A DNA stretch of 64,000 nucleotides from Pseudomonas sp. B6002 (GTDB taxonomy: Bacteria; Pseudomonadota; Gammaproteobacteria; Pseudomonadales; Pseudomonadaceae), in contig NZ_JACAOY010000003.1 of assembly GCF_013385985.1 (NCBI RefSeq), positions 62,001 through 126,000 on the forward strand, read 5' to 3'. Of this stretch, positions 8,671-63,767 are shown piece by piece. The notes under the pieces are model-generated. The model was not told the origin of the DNA, made no database searches, and saw only the letters and a list, made by a program, of their open reading frames with translations. Positions within the stretch are counted from its first letter, which is position 1; each line of letters opens with the position of its first letter. The position numbers and the translations under genes are program-made.

Positions 8671-8757
8671 TGTGGGAGCTGGCTTGCCTGCGATGCAGAC
8701 ACCTCGGTACATCAGGCACACCCAGTTGATGCCATCGCAGGCAAGCCAGCTCCTACA
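8671..8757. repeat. REP palindrome pair (REPIN), arm type A
   Basis: TGTGGGAGCTGGCTTGCC at 8671 pairs with the complementary arm ending TCCTACA at 8757; one arm has CTCCTAC instead of CTCCCAC. It fills the gap between convergent genes (the histidine kinase and the SEC-C protein) and may serve as the shared transcription end. Confidence 0.88.
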
Positions 8758-40546: not shown

Positions 40547-40611
40547 ATCGCAGGCAAGCCAGCTCCCACATTTGAAATGCATTCCAAGTGTGGGAGCTGG
40601 CTTGCCTGCGA
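40547..40611. repeat. REP palindrome pair, arm type A, inverted order
   Basis: ATCGCAGGCAAGCCAGCTCC comes first and TGTGGGAGCTGGCTTGCC second, the reverse of the usual outward order, with a 20-base spacer. It lies just past the stop of the tubulin-like gene. Confidence 0.88.
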
Positions 40612-40626: not shown

Positions 40627-42804
40627 CTAGGCGGTCTTGCCGGTATGGTTGTTCAACGAGATAACCTTGGTCTTGCCAATCCGGTGACGGTAAATCTCGC
40701 GCAGGTACTTGATCGACTTCTTCACGCAATCCCGTGACAGGCGAATGTCATTGATCGACACGAACTTCTCTTTGTCGTTGATCAGCTCGCGGTACTTCTT
40801 CTCGTACATCGGCTTGATCGCATACCAGTTGGTGTCGAGGATCTTCGCCGGGTTTTCAAACTCGTTGAGCAATTCGTCGATACGGTCTTCGTCGAAGTCC
40901 TCGTGGATGATGAAATCCAGGATCGAGTTGTCCAGCGTGTCGTCGAAACGGTACGGGTTGCGCGCAAAGCAGCGTTTGATGAACGCCACGATCAAGGTCA
41001 GGAAATCATCCGACAGGCACGGGCTTTTAGCGATCAACGTGGTCAGCGACAGGTTGGCCGACGCACCGATCACTAACGCATAACGCTTGAGCGTGGTGTT
41101 GGGGAACAGGCTGTTGAGGTGGGTCTTGAGCCGGTTCAGGTCCATGTAGGACAGCTTGTAGTCCTTGGGCAGCGAGACGATCGACACCACCGACGAGCAG
41201 TTCTTGAAGAAGTGCAGGTCGTGCAGCGCGGCGGCGTCGTAGCCGGAATTCTTGTATTGCTCCAGGGACGCCTTGTAGCGCTTGGACTCGATCGGCAACA
41301 GGCTGATGCCCTCGATAGCCTGGGTGACCTTGTTGAAGTGCGGCAGGTCGATGGAGCGGAAGAACAGGTCATCGATGTTCAGGCGCTGTGGCTCTTTGTC
41401 GAACACCTTGAACTTGTCGTTGGACGGTGCCGGGGTTTCCGGCACCACAGACTCGGCGTAGGCAATCGCGACCGGGCCGGCCAGGCTCATGAACAGGTCG
41501 TTGGCGTCCAGGCGGATGGTCTCGCCAATGTCGATGCCCGCACGCCTGAAGTAGTTCTGGTCGTAGTCGGTGGTCACGGCCTGGGCCGTGAGGATGTTGA
41601 AGATCTGCTGGGAGATGTACTGGTTGGCGTGTTTTTCCATGGCATTGACGTCAATGTTCTGGATGTTGCCGTCATCGCTTTCTTCGGCGTAACGCATGAT
41701 GTCGTTGGAAATCAGCATCATGGCGTTCCACGGCCGGATACGCCCCTTCACGCTGGCTTCGCTGGTGTCTTCATTGGCAAAGTTGTACGAGAAATCCCAT
41801 TCTTCCGACAGGTATTTGCACAGCAGTCGCCCGGCGTTGATGTGCAGCGCCTCGGACATTTCACTGCGGTGATCGGAAATATTCGGCAATACGCAGATAC
41901 CGCTGGTGAAGATCGGCTCGAACACAAACGCGTGGCCGCTCTTGCTGTCATGCTCGTCGGCGGGCTTGGTGTCGAACGTCTTGTTCATGTACGAGTGCTG
42001 CTGGGCCAGACCGAACTCCGAGGCCATGCCCGAACCGGTACCGCCGCCGGCGCTGAAGATCGAGAAGTACAGGCGCGACTGGTTGGCCTTGATGCCGCAG
42101 GAGTCGATCAGGTACGAGTGGATCATCTTCCAGTCGGGGCTGGAAAAACGCTGGGTGTCTTTATTCAGGATAATCTTGGCCAGGTACTGGCCGAGGATCG
42201 GTGCGTTACCGGCACCACCGGCATGGACTTCCGAGAGGTCCATGATTTTCATTTTGCTGTAGTCGCGCAAAAAGCCGCTTTTTTCGCCCTTGCGCGAGAA
42301 ACGGATACGCCCGGCGATGTCCTTGTCCAGGTCGCCCAGCATCACCAGCGGTTCCACCAGGAATACCGGTTTACTGGCCTTGCCGCCGCCCAGGCGCAGG
42401 TTGTTACGGATCCATTGGGCCGGGCTGTAGCCCTTGTCCTGCGACTTGTCTTCGTTGCTGAACTCGTTCAGGTAGAACTTGCGTGCGTTGTACACCAACT
42501 CCGCCACGTCCAGCGCGATATTGGAGCCGCAACGGCCAAGGCCGATCAGGCACACCGAAGGGAATTCCTGCTCGTTGCGCGGATCGTTGTCGCCTTCCAG
42601 GTGAGGCAGGCGCGGGAACACCATGTCGCGCAGGCCGTCGAGGTTGTCGAGGATGCGGTCGGTGTTGGTTTCGGTGAAGTACAGGTATTGCTGGGTGGCC
42701 AGCGGGCGGGCGCTGCTCAATGACTTGGAACTTGAGGGTTTTTCCGCAGGAGCTGTCGGCAACACGTCGGAGATTACGGTGGCAGAGTTATTGTTGGAAG
42801 TCAT
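40627..42804 (-). CDS. Large tubulin/FtsZ-like GTPase-fold protein
   Basis: A 725-residue protein. After about 80 polar residues comes a Rossmann-type loop I-G-L-G-R-C-G-S-N at 87-95. Residues 250-262 read F-S-A-G-G-G-T-G-S-G-M-A-S, matching the tubulin/FtsZ signature (GGGTGTG/S) that binds nucleotide phosphates. Together these follow the order G-box 1, then T4 loop, of the tubulin superfamily. The roughly 350 residues beyond are far longer than in FtsZ and are charged, with a basic end. A catalytic T7-loop motif (N-x-D) is not certain; N-I-D-V-N and G-I-D-I-G near residues 390-430 are candidates. The closest fit I know is the Tubulin_2-like group. The ATG at 42804 is chosen; a TTG lies ten codons upstream. 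The gene stands alone. Confidence 0.75.
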   Translation of the reverse strand: MTSNNNSATVISDVLPTAPAEKPSSSKSLSSARPLATQQYLYFTETNTDRILDNLDGLRDMVFPRLPHLEGDNDPRNEQEFPSVCLIGLGRCGSNIALDVAELVYNARKFYLNEFSNEDKSQDKGYSPAQWIRNNLRLGGGKASKPVFLVEPLVMLGDLDKDIAGRIRFSRKGEKSGFLRDYSKMKIMDLSEVHAGGAGNAPILGQYLAKIILNKDTQRFSSPDWKMIHSYLIDSCGIKANQSRLYFSIFSAGGGTGSGMASEFGLAQQHSYMNKTFDTKPADEHDSKSGHAFVFEPIFTSGICVLPNISDHRSEMSEALHINAGRLLCKYLSEEWDFSYNFANEDTSEASVKGRIRPWNAMMLISNDIMRYAEESDDGNIQNIDVNAMEKHANQYISQQIFNILTAQAVTTDYDQNYFRRAGIDIGETIRLDANDLFMSLAGPVAIAYAESVVPETPAPSNDKFKVFDKEPQRLNIDDLFFRSIDLPHFNKVTQAIEGISLLPIESKRYKASLEQYKNSGYDAAALHDLHFFKNCSSVVSIVSLPKDYKLSYMDLNRLKTHLNSLFPNTTLKRYALVIGASANLSLTTLIAKSPCLSDDFLTLIVAFIKRCFARNPYRFDDTLDNSILDFIIHEDFDEDRIDELLNEFENPAKILDTNWYAIKPMYEKKYRELINDKEKFVSINDIRLSRDCVKKSIKYLREIYRHRIGKTKVISLNNHTGKTA

Positions 42805-43009: not shown

Positions 43010-45274
43010 TCAGCGAATTGGCCTGACGATAGAGGCGGGGCCTACCCGTGTGGGGGAGGGGTCTTTGGGGGAGGGGACGTCCTTGTTGCCCTCCACGCTA
43101 AAAGGGTAGAGCGGGTTGCGCATCTGTATGCCTTGCATTACGCCGATGATGTCACTGGCGGGCACGGCCGGGCTCAGCAAGTACCCTTGAATGTAGTCGC
43201 AACCGTGTTTGAGCAGCAGGTCGAATTGCGCTTGGGTTTCCACGCCTTCGGTGACGACTTGCAGGTGCAGGGTGTGGGCCATGCCGATAATGGCCTGGAC
43301 AATTTCGATGTCGGCGGTGGACTTGGGGATGTCCTGGATAAACGAGCGGTCGATCTTCAAGGTATTGAGGGGCAGGCGCTTGAGGTAGGCCAGGGAGGAA
43401 TAACCCGTGCCGAAATCGTCGATGGCCAAAGACACGCCCAGCGAGCGAATTTGCCGCAACAACGCCAGGGTGCTGCTGATATTGCCCATCAACGCGTTTT
43501 CGGTGACCTCCAGTTCCAGGCGGTTGGCGGCCACACCGGCGAAGCGCAGGGCGTCTTCGATTTCATCGGCCAATTCGTCACGGGCCAGGTTCAGGGCCGA
43601 GCAGTTCACCGCCATGGTCAGTTCGGTGTAACCGCGATCCGACAGCAGGCTCAAGTCGTGGCAGGCCTGGCGCAATACCCAGTGATCCAGTTCGGCAATC
43701 AGCCCGTTGCTTTCGGCGATGCCGATGAAGCGGTCCGGGGCCAGCAAGCCGTGTTGCGGGTGCTGCCAGCGCACCAGGGCTTCCAGGCGGGTCACCTTGC
43801 CCAGCTTCATGTCAAAGATCGGCTGGTAGAACAGCACCAGTTCGTTGCGCGTGCGCAGGGCGGCGCGCAACTCTTCTTCCAGTTGCAGTTCGAGAAAGGC
43901 GCGGGTTTTCAGGTTGGAGCTGAAGAAGTTCAGGCTGTTGCGCCCGGTGTCCTTGGATTGATACAGCGCTAGGTCTGCAGTTTTCAACAGCTCTTCGCAG
44001 GTCAGGCCGTCATCGGGAAACAGGCTGATGCCGATGCTGGTGGTCATTACCATGCGCCGCCCGGCCAGCTCGATCGGGTCCTTCATCCTTTGCATGATGC
44101 GCTGGGCCATGTGCCGCGCTTCATCGCGGTGATGGATGCTGATCAGGATGCAGAACTCATCCCCGCCAAAGCGGGCGACCACGTCTTCATGGCTGCGCAC
44201 CGAGCCCTTGATATGCCCGGCCAGCACGGTGAGCAGTTGGTCACCGGCGTCGTGTCCAAGGCTGTCGTTGATGCGTTTGAAGTGGTCGATATCCAGGAAG
44301 ATTACCGCCATCATGCCGTGTGAAGCGGTTTTTTCGGCGAGTTTTTCCGCGAAGATCTGATTGAAGCCCCGACGGTTGAGCAGGCTGGTCAGCGCATCGA
44401 AGTGCGCCACCTGTTGCAGCGAGGCTCGCGCCTGGTCGAGTTCACTGAGCAGGGCATTTACCCGGCGCAGGTCGCGCTCCTTGTGCTGCAATTTTTTATC
44501 CGCCAAGGCTGCGCTGATGCTGCTACCGATCACCAATAACGTAATGACCGCCACCGACAAGCCCAGCTGAATCGGGTTGTTATCCACTGGCAATGACAGG
44601 TCCGCGCCATTGGGCACCAGCATCTGCATGGCGGCCATGCCGGTGAAGTGCATGCTCAGGATGCCCGCGCCCAACACCAGGCTGGCGGCGTATTTGAGCA
44701 ATTGATGAAACACACCGGAGCCGTTGCGCAGGTAGCTGGACAGCAGCAACGCCGCCAGGCTCGCGCCAATCGCAATGCCGACCGAGGCCATGAACAGTCC
44801 CGACTCGAAATACACCTGGGCCTGGGAGCGCATTGCCGACATGCCGACGTAGTGCATCAGCGCGATGCCAAGGCCCATCCATACCGAGGCCAACAGGTAT
44901 TGATGGAACTTGAGCTGGGCGTGACTAAGGGTCTGCATGGCAAACAGCGATGCGATCAGGGCGATCAGCAGCGAGGCAAACGTGATGAGCAATTCGTAAT
45001 GAATGGCAATCGGTGCCTGGAAGGCCAGCATGCTGATGAAGTGAGTCGACCAAATACCCCCGGCGAGGCACCCCGCACCCAGCCAGCGCCAGTGGCGGCG
45101 AGCGGTGGGGTCTTCCACATGGCCGACACGTTCGGCCATGTCCAGCGTGCCGAACCCGGCCGCACACGCCACCAGGTAAGCCAGTAGCACCAGAAAGGGG
45201 TTATGACTGCAATTGAGTAATAAGTGCCCGTTGTCTGGAAGGTCGGTAAAAAAATGCAGACCAAGCCATTCCAT
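43010..45274 (-). CDS. MHYT-GGDEF-EAL membrane protein of the MucR/NbdA type
   Basis: A 754-residue c-di-GMP enzyme. The N-terminal MHYT domain (about 25-260) has seven helices with repeated H-F-I-S-M, M-H-Y-V-G-M and M-H-F-T-G-M motifs, proposed to bind copper and sense O2, CO or NO. The GGDEF domain has an intact G-G-D-E-F at 370-374, so cyclase activity is possible. The EAL domain opens with L-E-A-L-V-R-W (Glu498) and keeps D-D-F-G-T-G-Y-S-S near residue 615 and E-G-V-E-T near 680. Intact GGDEF resembles MucR; I recall that P. aeruginosa NbdA, located near rapA as here, has a degenerate one. The start at 45274 has a GGGA site. Confidence 0.93.
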   Translation of the reverse strand: MEWLGLHFFTDLPDNGHLLLNCSHNPFLVLLAYLVACAAGFGTLDMAERVGHVEDPTARRHWRWLGAGCLAGGIWSTHFISMLAFQAPIAIHYELLITFASLLIALIASLFAMQTLSHAQLKFHQYLLASVWMGLGIALMHYVGMSAMRSQAQVYFESGLFMASVGIAIGASLAALLLSSYLRNGSGVFHQLLKYAASLVLGAGILSMHFTGMAAMQMLVPNGADLSLPVDNNPIQLGLSVAVITLLVIGSSISAALADKKLQHKERDLRRVNALLSELDQARASLQQVAHFDALTSLLNRRGFNQIFAEKLAEKTASHGMMAVIFLDIDHFKRINDSLGHDAGDQLLTVLAGHIKGSVRSHEDVVARFGGDEFCILISIHHRDEARHMAQRIMQRMKDPIELAGRRMVMTTSIGISLFPDDGLTCEELLKTADLALYQSKDTGRNSLNFFSSNLKTRAFLELQLEEELRAALRTRNELVLFYQPIFDMKLGKVTRLEALVRWQHPQHGLLAPDRFIGIAESNGLIAELDHWVLRQACHDLSLLSDRGYTELTMAVNCSALNLARDELADEIEDALRFAGVAANRLELEVTENALMGNISSTLALLRQIRSLGVSLAIDDFGTGYSSLAYLKRLPLNTLKIDRSFIQDIPKSTADIEIVQAIIGMAHTLHLQVVTEGVETQAQFDLLLKHGCDYIQGYLLSPAVPASDIIGVMQGIQMRNPLYPFSVEGNKDVPSPKDPSPTRVGPASIVRPIR

Positions 45275-45415
45275 AGCATGTCCCGTCATAGCGTCATTAC
45301 GTCACTGCCTACAGCAATGACCTACGACATCGAGTATAGAAGCCTCACGGGGTTTGCCATGGGTAATGGCACTTTGCTCTCAACGATTTTGGCATGCCGG
45401 CCATAGCGTTTGATG

Positions 45416-47394: not shown

Positions 47395-47458
47395 ATCGCA
47401 GGCAAGCCAGCTCCCACAAGGAATTGCGTATACCTGTAGGAGCCGGCTTGCCGGCGAT
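47395..47458. repeat. Hybrid REP element: one type A arm, one type B arm
   Basis: ATCGCAGGCAAGCCAGCTCC (type A) comes first and TGTAGGAGCCGGCTTGCC (type B) second. The arms still pair well, but not perfectly. The same mix occurs at 59290 and 63686. Confidence 0.85.
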
Positions 47459-54173: not shown

Positions 54174-54257
54174 TGTAGGAGCCGGCTTGCCGGCGATAGC
54201 GTTCTTGAAAGTTGCGGTGATGGTGAGGGTGCCATCGCCGGCAAGCCGGCTCCTACA
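54174..54257. repeat. REP palindrome pair, arm type B
   Basis: TGTAGGAGCCGGCTTGCCGG at 54174 and its complement ending GGCTCCTACA at 54257 are perfectly matched. It lies between the ccoM-like terminator and the pit terminator. Confidence 0.9.
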
Positions 54258-59289: not shown

Positions 59290-59376
59290 TGTAGGAGCCG
59301 GCTTGCCGGCGATGGCATCACCTCGATAAGCCTGATTGACCGAGGTGCCTGCATCGCAGGCAAGCCAGCTCCCACA
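59290..59376. repeat. Hybrid REP element: type B arm then type A arm
   Basis: TGTAGGAGCCGGCTTGCCGG at 59290 and GCAGGCAAGCCAGCTCCCAC ending near 59375. Each arm is intact for its own family, but the pair is mixed. It separates pcaK from the pcaIJF operators. Confidence 0.85.
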
Positions 59377-63685: not shown

Positions 63686-63767
63686 ATCGCAGGCAAGCCA
63701 GCTCCCACATTTGATCGAGTTCCAACTCTGGAATGCAATCAACTGTAGGAGCCGGCTTGCCGGCGAT
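63686..63767. repeat. Hybrid REP element: type A arm then type B arm
   Basis: ATCGCAGGCAAGCCAGCTCC at 63686 and TGTAGGAGCCGGCTTGCC ending in CGGCGAT at 63767. It lies right after pcaG and may lower readthrough into pcaT. Confidence 0.86.

Follow-up and report, generated by a model that had tools for sequence, protein, structure and literature searches.

The gene at 40627..42804 on the minus strand of the analysed window, a stretch of 64,000 nucleotides from Pseudomonas sp. B6002, probably encodes the FtsZl2 orthologue of Pseudomonas, FtsZl2 being a divergent family within the FtsZ/tubulin superfamily, and its product is likely to bind GTP, to stack head to tail in a dynamic manner and not to replace FtsZ. 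FtsZl2 is an already described and uncharacterised family, and its function would most likely be that of a GTP-driven polymer former outside the divisome. The tubulin fold, GTP binding, polymerisation and dispensability of FtsZl2 are properties that we infer.

40627..42804, minus strand: FtsZl2 gene, 725 aa, with the ATG at 42804 (from ORF translation and family alignments)

The open reading frame of 725 residues, from 42804 to 40627 on the minus strand, agrees with that proposed by a sequence-only reading of this DNA. A TTG located 30 bases upstream of the ATG could serve as an alternative start and would give a product of 735 aa, but the ATG is preferred, as M1 hardly varies across an alignment of 19 rows. 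The median dN/dS of the FtsZl2 gene over 19 chosen orthologue pairs, calculated according to Nei-Gojobori with our own script, is 0.085, as compared to 0.064 for rapA (19 pairs), 0.081 for the MFS gene (17 pairs), 0.10 and 0.12 for braF and braC (19 pairs each), 0.18 over 16 pairs of the MHYT gene and 0.23 over 19 pairs of the DUF2288 gene, and since the value falls in the range of the housekeeping neighbours the gene is constrained like them. An alignment of 36 rows from several genera, which corresponds to 34 distinct genes as L215 repeats L029 and L216 repeats L115, has 310 invariant columns, with an identity to the window protein of 56–96%. The open reading frame is a real gene under purifying selection.

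FtsZl2 is one of two families described in 2010 by Makarova and Koonin; it was found through a search for the GGGTGSG-type signature and is typified by PFL_1302 of P. fluorescens Pf-5, which has an HHpred match to PF00091 with an E value of 0.0033 (PMC2875224). According to the accessible part of that paper the family has the loops T1, T4, T6 and T7, helix H7 and inserts between T1 and T4, the T4 loop being GGGTG(S/T)G, and a C-terminal region of about 300 aa that is mixed alpha/beta, with no coiled coil and no known similarity (PMC2875224). Its members are proteobacterial and typically found beside a conventional FtsZ, and Figure 1 of the paper also lists Marinomonas and Chromobacterium (PMC2875224). 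The window protein fits FtsZl2 in what a sequence can show, with the T4 signature, the T1-, T6-, T7- and H7-like motifs, the inserts between T1 and T4, and a separate, normal FtsZ of about 400 aa encoded in its own genome. The gene is the only Tubulin_2-like gene listed in its own genome, and we therefore infer that it is orthologous to PFL_1302.

The sequence-only reading had noted that a protein of this kind has no known role, which stands in so far as no paper on a role was found, but the protein is not undescribed, the family having been named since 2010. Literature searches with the exact names, with subscription journals mostly outside their reach, gave no experimental work on FtsZl2, only the 2010 description and a false match (PMC7327170), where in the accessible text the name belongs to the mutant FtsZ-L272E. 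Broader searches, for part of which the top-ranked matches alone were considered, likewise gave no experimental FtsZl2 paper. The accessible part of PMC6828691 does not mention the gene, and PMC3390384 contains none of the four terms sought. As far as their accessible parts go, PMC7159879 deals with other tubulin-containing conflict systems and PMC9871819 with the Tubulin_2-bearing FtsZ-like group.

The domain limits of the window protein are estimated from motifs, and the layout is as follows, with invariant columns counted in the 36-row alignment.

42568..42804, minus strand: N-terminal tail, residues 1–79 (variable in residues 1–38 with 0 of 38 columns invariant; conserved in part in residues 39–79 with 6 of 41)
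41452..42567, minus strand: predicted GTPase core including T7 and the next strand, residues 80–451 (202 of 372 columns invariant)
42514..42546, minus strand: T1-like loop IGLGRCGSNIA, residues 87–97 (motif mapping and landmark order)
42190..42225, minus strand: T3-like loop HAGGAGNAPILG, residues 194–205 (motif mapping; the counterpart in the FtsZ of the same genome is GAGANPEVG)
42028..42048, minus strand: T4 tubulin signature GGGTGSG, residues 253–259 (invariant in the 36 rows)
41683..41736, minus strand: T6-like stretch RPWNAMMLISNDIMRYAE, residues 357–374 (mapped by eye)
41581..41652, minus strand: H7-like stretch, residues 385–408 (mapped by eye)
41497..41514, minus strand: T7-like loop RLDAND, residues 431–436 (mapped against the FtsZ encoded in the own genome)
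40735..41382, minus strand: conserved C-terminal region, residues 475–690 (no recognised family)

The GGGTGSG signature at residues 253–259 and the preceding glycine loop, IGLGRCGSN at residues 87–95, are located where the earlier reading had placed them, while the approximately 350 residues it assigned to the part after the GTPase are reduced to about 275 by motif mapping (after residue ~451, the limit being set by motif), and these are without any Pfam match over the cut-off. The remaining extra length consists of the N-terminal tail of ~79 residues and of inserts, the span from T1 to T3 being 107 residues as against about 50 in the genome's own FtsZ. D433 and D436 of RLDAND match the aspartates of NVDFAD in that FtsZ and both are conserved, with the Asn of the FtsZ motif replaced by Arg. 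The T7 aspartates are catalytic in FtsZ, and their conservation would be in agreement with GTP hydrolysis of the FtsZ type. No column is invariant in the linker (residues 452–474), and conservation then extends past the GTPase part, with 71 of 141 columns invariant in residues 475–615, 2 of 35 in residues 616–650 and 24 of 40 in residues 651–690, so that parts of the C-terminal region are conserved as strongly as the GTPase core.

In FtsZ and tubulin the GTP lies between loops T1–T6 of one subunit and loop T7 of its neighbour, and its hydrolysis drives the turnover of the filament. FtsZl2 should bind GTP between its loops T1–T6, the subunits would stack head to tail, and D433 and D436 in the T7 loop of one subunit would help to hydrolyse the GTP of the next, with dynamic filaments or oligomers as the expected outcome. 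The C-terminal region of residues 475–690 is probably used for assembly or for binding of a partner, and it is the likely site of the family-specific function because it is well conserved and belongs to no known family; the variable N-terminal tail would be a flexible extension. FtsZl2 would not replace FtsZ, and its presumptive function is cytoskeletal and dispensable, maintained by strong selection in roughly two thirds of the sampled Pseudomonas. Cell division is an unlikely task since the genome has a separate FtsZ and a third of the genus sample lacks the FtsZl2 gene, and the authors of 2010 reasoned likewise (PMC2875224). It is rather unlikely that the superfamily GTPase core is retained and no filaments are formed, the protein being a GTP-regulated switch or an oligomer of fixed size in which the C-terminal region blocks or replaces stacking; the conservation of parts of that region at the level of the core and the Arg in place of the T7 Asn would suit such a protein, but both T7 aspartates are conserved, as is the H7-like stretch, and the accessible text of the 2010 paper expects FtsZl2 to form filaments (PMC2875224).

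The FtsZl2 gene is found in 195 of 299 Pseudomonas genomes, its own included (193 of the 289 of good quality), and 104 of the 299 have no match. The gene is also present in P. fluorescens FW300-N2E3 (L083). The 195 copies include at least three that are broken or partial, in G462, G649 and G664; the copy of G470 is in two pieces on the same contig, and in G617 the gene is split across two contigs. The absences together with the broken copies suggest that the gene can be lost. In the order sample 23 of 390 genomes, from 5 of 142 genera, are positive by profile, in the phylum sample 9 of 398, also by profile, counting the own genome as well as G1048, which has only fragments, and in the class sample 3 of 369, including the own genome and one marginal match (E 6e-4 over 86 residues). 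One genus with 13 positive genomes, here called g300, may be Marinomonas. Among the loci inspected, L240, L241, L242 and L243 hold broken or partial copies; in L240 the two parts are about 1 kb apart, and in L242 the MHYT, DUF2288 and bra neighbours are still found around the damaged gene. A phage or plasmid origin was considered and rejected, as tblastn against phages (50,697 records) and plasmids (72,556 records) gave no relative, and neither did a peptide-pattern scan of viral contigs that detects close relatives only, which fits the earlier statement that the gene is neither phage- nor plasmid-borne. A defence system was also considered and is rejected, with no PADLOC match.

Upstream of the FtsZl2 gene, on the same strand, is a possible partner.

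43010..45289, minus strand: MHYT-GGDEF-EAL protein, 759 aa, with GGDEF and EAL signatures

The sequence-only reading described the neighbours as housekeeping and named an MHYT c-di-GMP protein among them, which can be specified as this MHYT-GGDEF-EAL protein. A survey of gene neighbourhoods across Pseudomonas, as that reading had proposed, gave a conserved place in the nearest relatives, that is in the best 80 of 562 (identity 92–99%), which as nearest relatives are not independent. Most of these 80 have the MHYT-GGDEF-EAL gene, FtsZl2, DUF2288 on the opposite strand and the bra operon, where the contig reaches. Among the 79 of the best 80 with at least 3 kb of upstream flank, 75 have a GGDEF/EAL gene on the same strand within 2 kb upstream, at a distance of 0.3–0.45 kb in 28 and of about 1.1 kb in 47. 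Of these 75 matches, those in L068 and L107 are shorter than the others. The larger spacing leaves room for another gene, as is seen in L158, where a gene on the opposite strand lies between. The gene is absent upstream in L040, L041, L072 and L103, and the flank of L093 is too short. In further Pseudomonas stretches, which may overlap with the best 80 of 562, a GGDEF/EAL gene is present in 8 of 16. Two gene types, presumably of the 3-hydroxyisobutyrate dehydrogenase and hydroxypyruvate isomerase families by resemblance, come and go around FtsZl2 in Pseudomonas (L158, L237 and L152).

Flanks in genus g300 could be taken from 7 of the 13 positive genomes, and in five of these seven loci a GGDEF-EAL gene is adjacent, downstream in four and upstream in one. 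Pfam identifies the gene beside FtsZl2 in L228, L229 and L231 as Amt-PAS-GGDEF-EAL. The fusion of an ammonium transporter to PAS, GGDEF and EAL was noted in these three, scanned with Pfam, and also in L232 and L234; in L231 the order of FtsZl2 and the fusion gene is swapped with the adjacency kept. In G093 a PAS-GGDEF-EAL protein is encoded by the second gene downstream. Among 306 picked genes of 19 loci, the loci not being independent, 8 are GGDEF/EAL genes, and 7 of them stand at the first or second position from FtsZl2. No GGDEF/EAL gene is located near FtsZl2 in L230, L233, L235 and L236, nor in L155 and L156, which are on short contigs, and outside the nearest relatives no neighbour is common to all loci. 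In genome G1308 the gene on the same strand upstream of FtsZl2 (L235:11361-13247) encodes L,D-transpeptidase (YkuD) and peptidoglycan-binding domains. If GGDEF/EAL genes are taken to make up on the order of 1–2% of the genes, then with about nine separate contexts and the four nearest genes in each, the chance of three matches is by hand arithmetic very roughly 0.005–0.03, before allowing for the post hoc choice. The occurrence of GGDEF-EAL near FtsZl2 in three lineages is thus a possible new clue, post hoc and weak, and a lead rather than a finding.

From these neighbours it could be proposed that FtsZl2 is cytoskeletal and works with the membrane-bound c-di-GMP enzyme, for instance by placing it or reading its state, in the switch between motile and attached cells, which we regard as doubtful. 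The upstream gene in 75 of 79 loci of the best 80, the adjacency in g300, the downstream gene in G093 and the concentration of GGDEF/EAL genes in the first and second positions argue for it, but many loci, including half of the further Pseudomonas stretches, are without such a gene, GGDEF/EAL genes are common in these bacteria, the loci among the best 80 of 562 are not independent, the choice is post hoc, gaps of about 200 bases or the intervening opposite-strand gene in L158 make a shared operon less likely, and FtsZl2 evolves more slowly than the MHYT protein. Quite improbable is the wider form, in which FtsZl2 would be a polymer driven by GTP that serves a c-di-GMP switch as its cytoskeletal arm, paired with a GGDEF-EAL enzyme in the transition from motile to attached life, and in the same measure that the sensor would vary by lineage, being MHYT in Pseudomonas, Amt in a second genus and PAS in a third.

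The kinship to tubulin and FtsZ is carried by the order of the motifs and by Pfam. The loops T1, T3, T6 and T7, with T4 omitted, occur in this order in all 36 FtsZl2 rows (34 distinct genes) and in 31 of 31 FtsZ; none of 1277 decoy ORFs, of which 1214 are distinct, and none of 20000 shuffles has the same pattern. The pattern, which does not include H7, was composed after both families had been seen, and an earlier version that required an acidic residue in T6 matched just 5 of the 31 FtsZ before it was relaxed; the ordered landmarks are therefore good but not blind evidence of tubulin kinship. In Pfam the window protein scores 18.9 bits with Tubulin_2 (PF13809) and 19.1 bits with Tubulin (PF00091), under the curated cut-offs of 27 and 33 respectively. 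When 19 members were scanned singly with E values up to 0.1, Tubulin_2 matched all 19 and Tubulin 18, with scores under the curated cut-offs wherever these are given, and no other Pfam family matched more than three of the 19. A search of the own genome with PF13809 lists the FtsZl2 gene alone (E 0.004, below the cut-off), and one with PF00091 (E up to 1) lists FtsZ and a chance match (E 0.6) and misses the FtsZl2 gene.

Neither tubulin nor FtsZ was found in PDB searches with the window protein and, separately, with a 19-member profile, and NCBIfam and PHROGs gave chance-level matches only (E 0.05 and 0.25). In hhalign the comparison with the 31 FtsZ did not outscore its reversed or block-shuffled controls; the FtsZ score of 28.1 is above those of ten unrelated neighbour families (best 22.9) and below the reversed control (30.6), and with the 36-row core FtsZ scores 24.5 as against a block-shuffle mean of 25.6. 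The best hhalign match is Tubulin_2 with 37.1 versus 23.8 when reversed, at a probability of only 26% and with a Tubulin_2 profile of four sequences. In hmmsearch against a background of 2072 decoys and 2000 shuffles, an HMM of the 31 FtsZ did not rank FtsZl2 over the decoys, and a Tubulin_2 HMM gave a best FtsZl2 score of 9.0 against 8.1 bits for the best decoy, with many members below the latter. AlphaFold2 gave an unusable model of the whole protein (mean pLDDT 30.9), the input being the window protein and 79 of the 80 loci with L050 omitted, all close relatives. The model of residues 79–456, from the window protein and 63 distinct sequences of the 80 loci, is also unusable (mean pLDDT 32.8), and its tubulin-like order of elements is no evidence at that confidence. 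Shallow alignments may account for the failed profile, PDB and AlphaFold2 tests.

The sequence-only reading had called the protein tubulin/FtsZ-like and proposed profile searches against Tubulin, Tubulin_2 and FtsZ; the ordered motifs, the two tubulin-like families that come out best in Pfam below their cut-offs, and the published HHpred match of PFL_1302 support it, while the FtsZ profiles and the PDB search do not. A coincidental GGGTGSG in a protein of some unrelated nucleotide-binding family, Rossmann-like or other, would be in line with the unreached Pfam cut-offs, the lack of PDB relatives, the negative FtsZ profile tests, the PF00091 search of the own genome that missed the gene, and the unusable models, but is very improbable given four further landmarks in tubulin order that no decoy or shuffle has, tubulin-like best families in nearly all members and the match of PFL_1302 to PF00091 (PMC2875224).

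Just downstream of the FtsZl2 gene is an inverted pair of a 22-base element, probably, as we assume, a REP-type repeat.

40548..40611, no strand assigned: inverted pair of the 22-base element, downstream of the FtsZl2 gene
2038-2125, 8672-8756, 47396-47457, 54175-54256, 59291-59375 and 63687-63766: other inverted pairs of the element
12552 and 34623: single copies of the element

The window contains 16 copies at three mismatches or less, with 0 expected in shuffles, arranged as seven inverted pairs and two singles, and the pair at 40548-40611 forms a very stable hairpin (z -9.3) that may end transcription.

A constrained protein of the tubulin superfamily that stands beside FtsZ in about two thirds of the sampled Pseudomonas, with no bench study found, marks a gap in a well-tractable genus. 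If filaments are formed, a chromosomal tubulin not engaged in division would be added to those of bacteria, and if the link to c-di-GMP holds, a cytoskeleton would be tied to biofilm control. The constraint, the breadth in Pseudomonas and the weak c-di-GMP lead give the gene a moderate interest and make it a good bench target.

Compared with FtsZl2 as typified by PFL_1302, the window protein shares the superfamily motifs, the inserts that separate T1 from T4, a C-terminal region to which no relatives are known and a place in Pseudomonas beside FtsZ, and no difference was found. A GGDEF-EAL neighbour is noted here; the accessible part of the 2010 paper reports no associated genes (PMC2875224). 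With FtsZl1/Tubulin_2 (PF13809) it shares the GTP-binding loop region and the sub-threshold match in 19 of 19 members, but FtsZl1 is reported to contain a coiled coil, to lack a recognisable T6-H7 and to be encoded in operons together with vWA and other genes (PMC2875224), whereas FtsZl2 has T6-, H7- and T7-like motifs and none of the vWA or other FtsZl1-type operon genes among the neighbours scanned with Pfam. The landmark loops T1, T3, T4, T6 and T7 are in the same order as in bacterial FtsZ, from which the protein differs by its 725 as against about 400 residues, by the absence of a significant profile match and by having a gene separate from that of the genome's FtsZ. The tubulin-superfamily signature is also present in TubZ of plasmids and PhuZ of phages, and FtsZl2 is set apart from them by description, being chromosomal and, by the lengths given in the earlier reading, longer.
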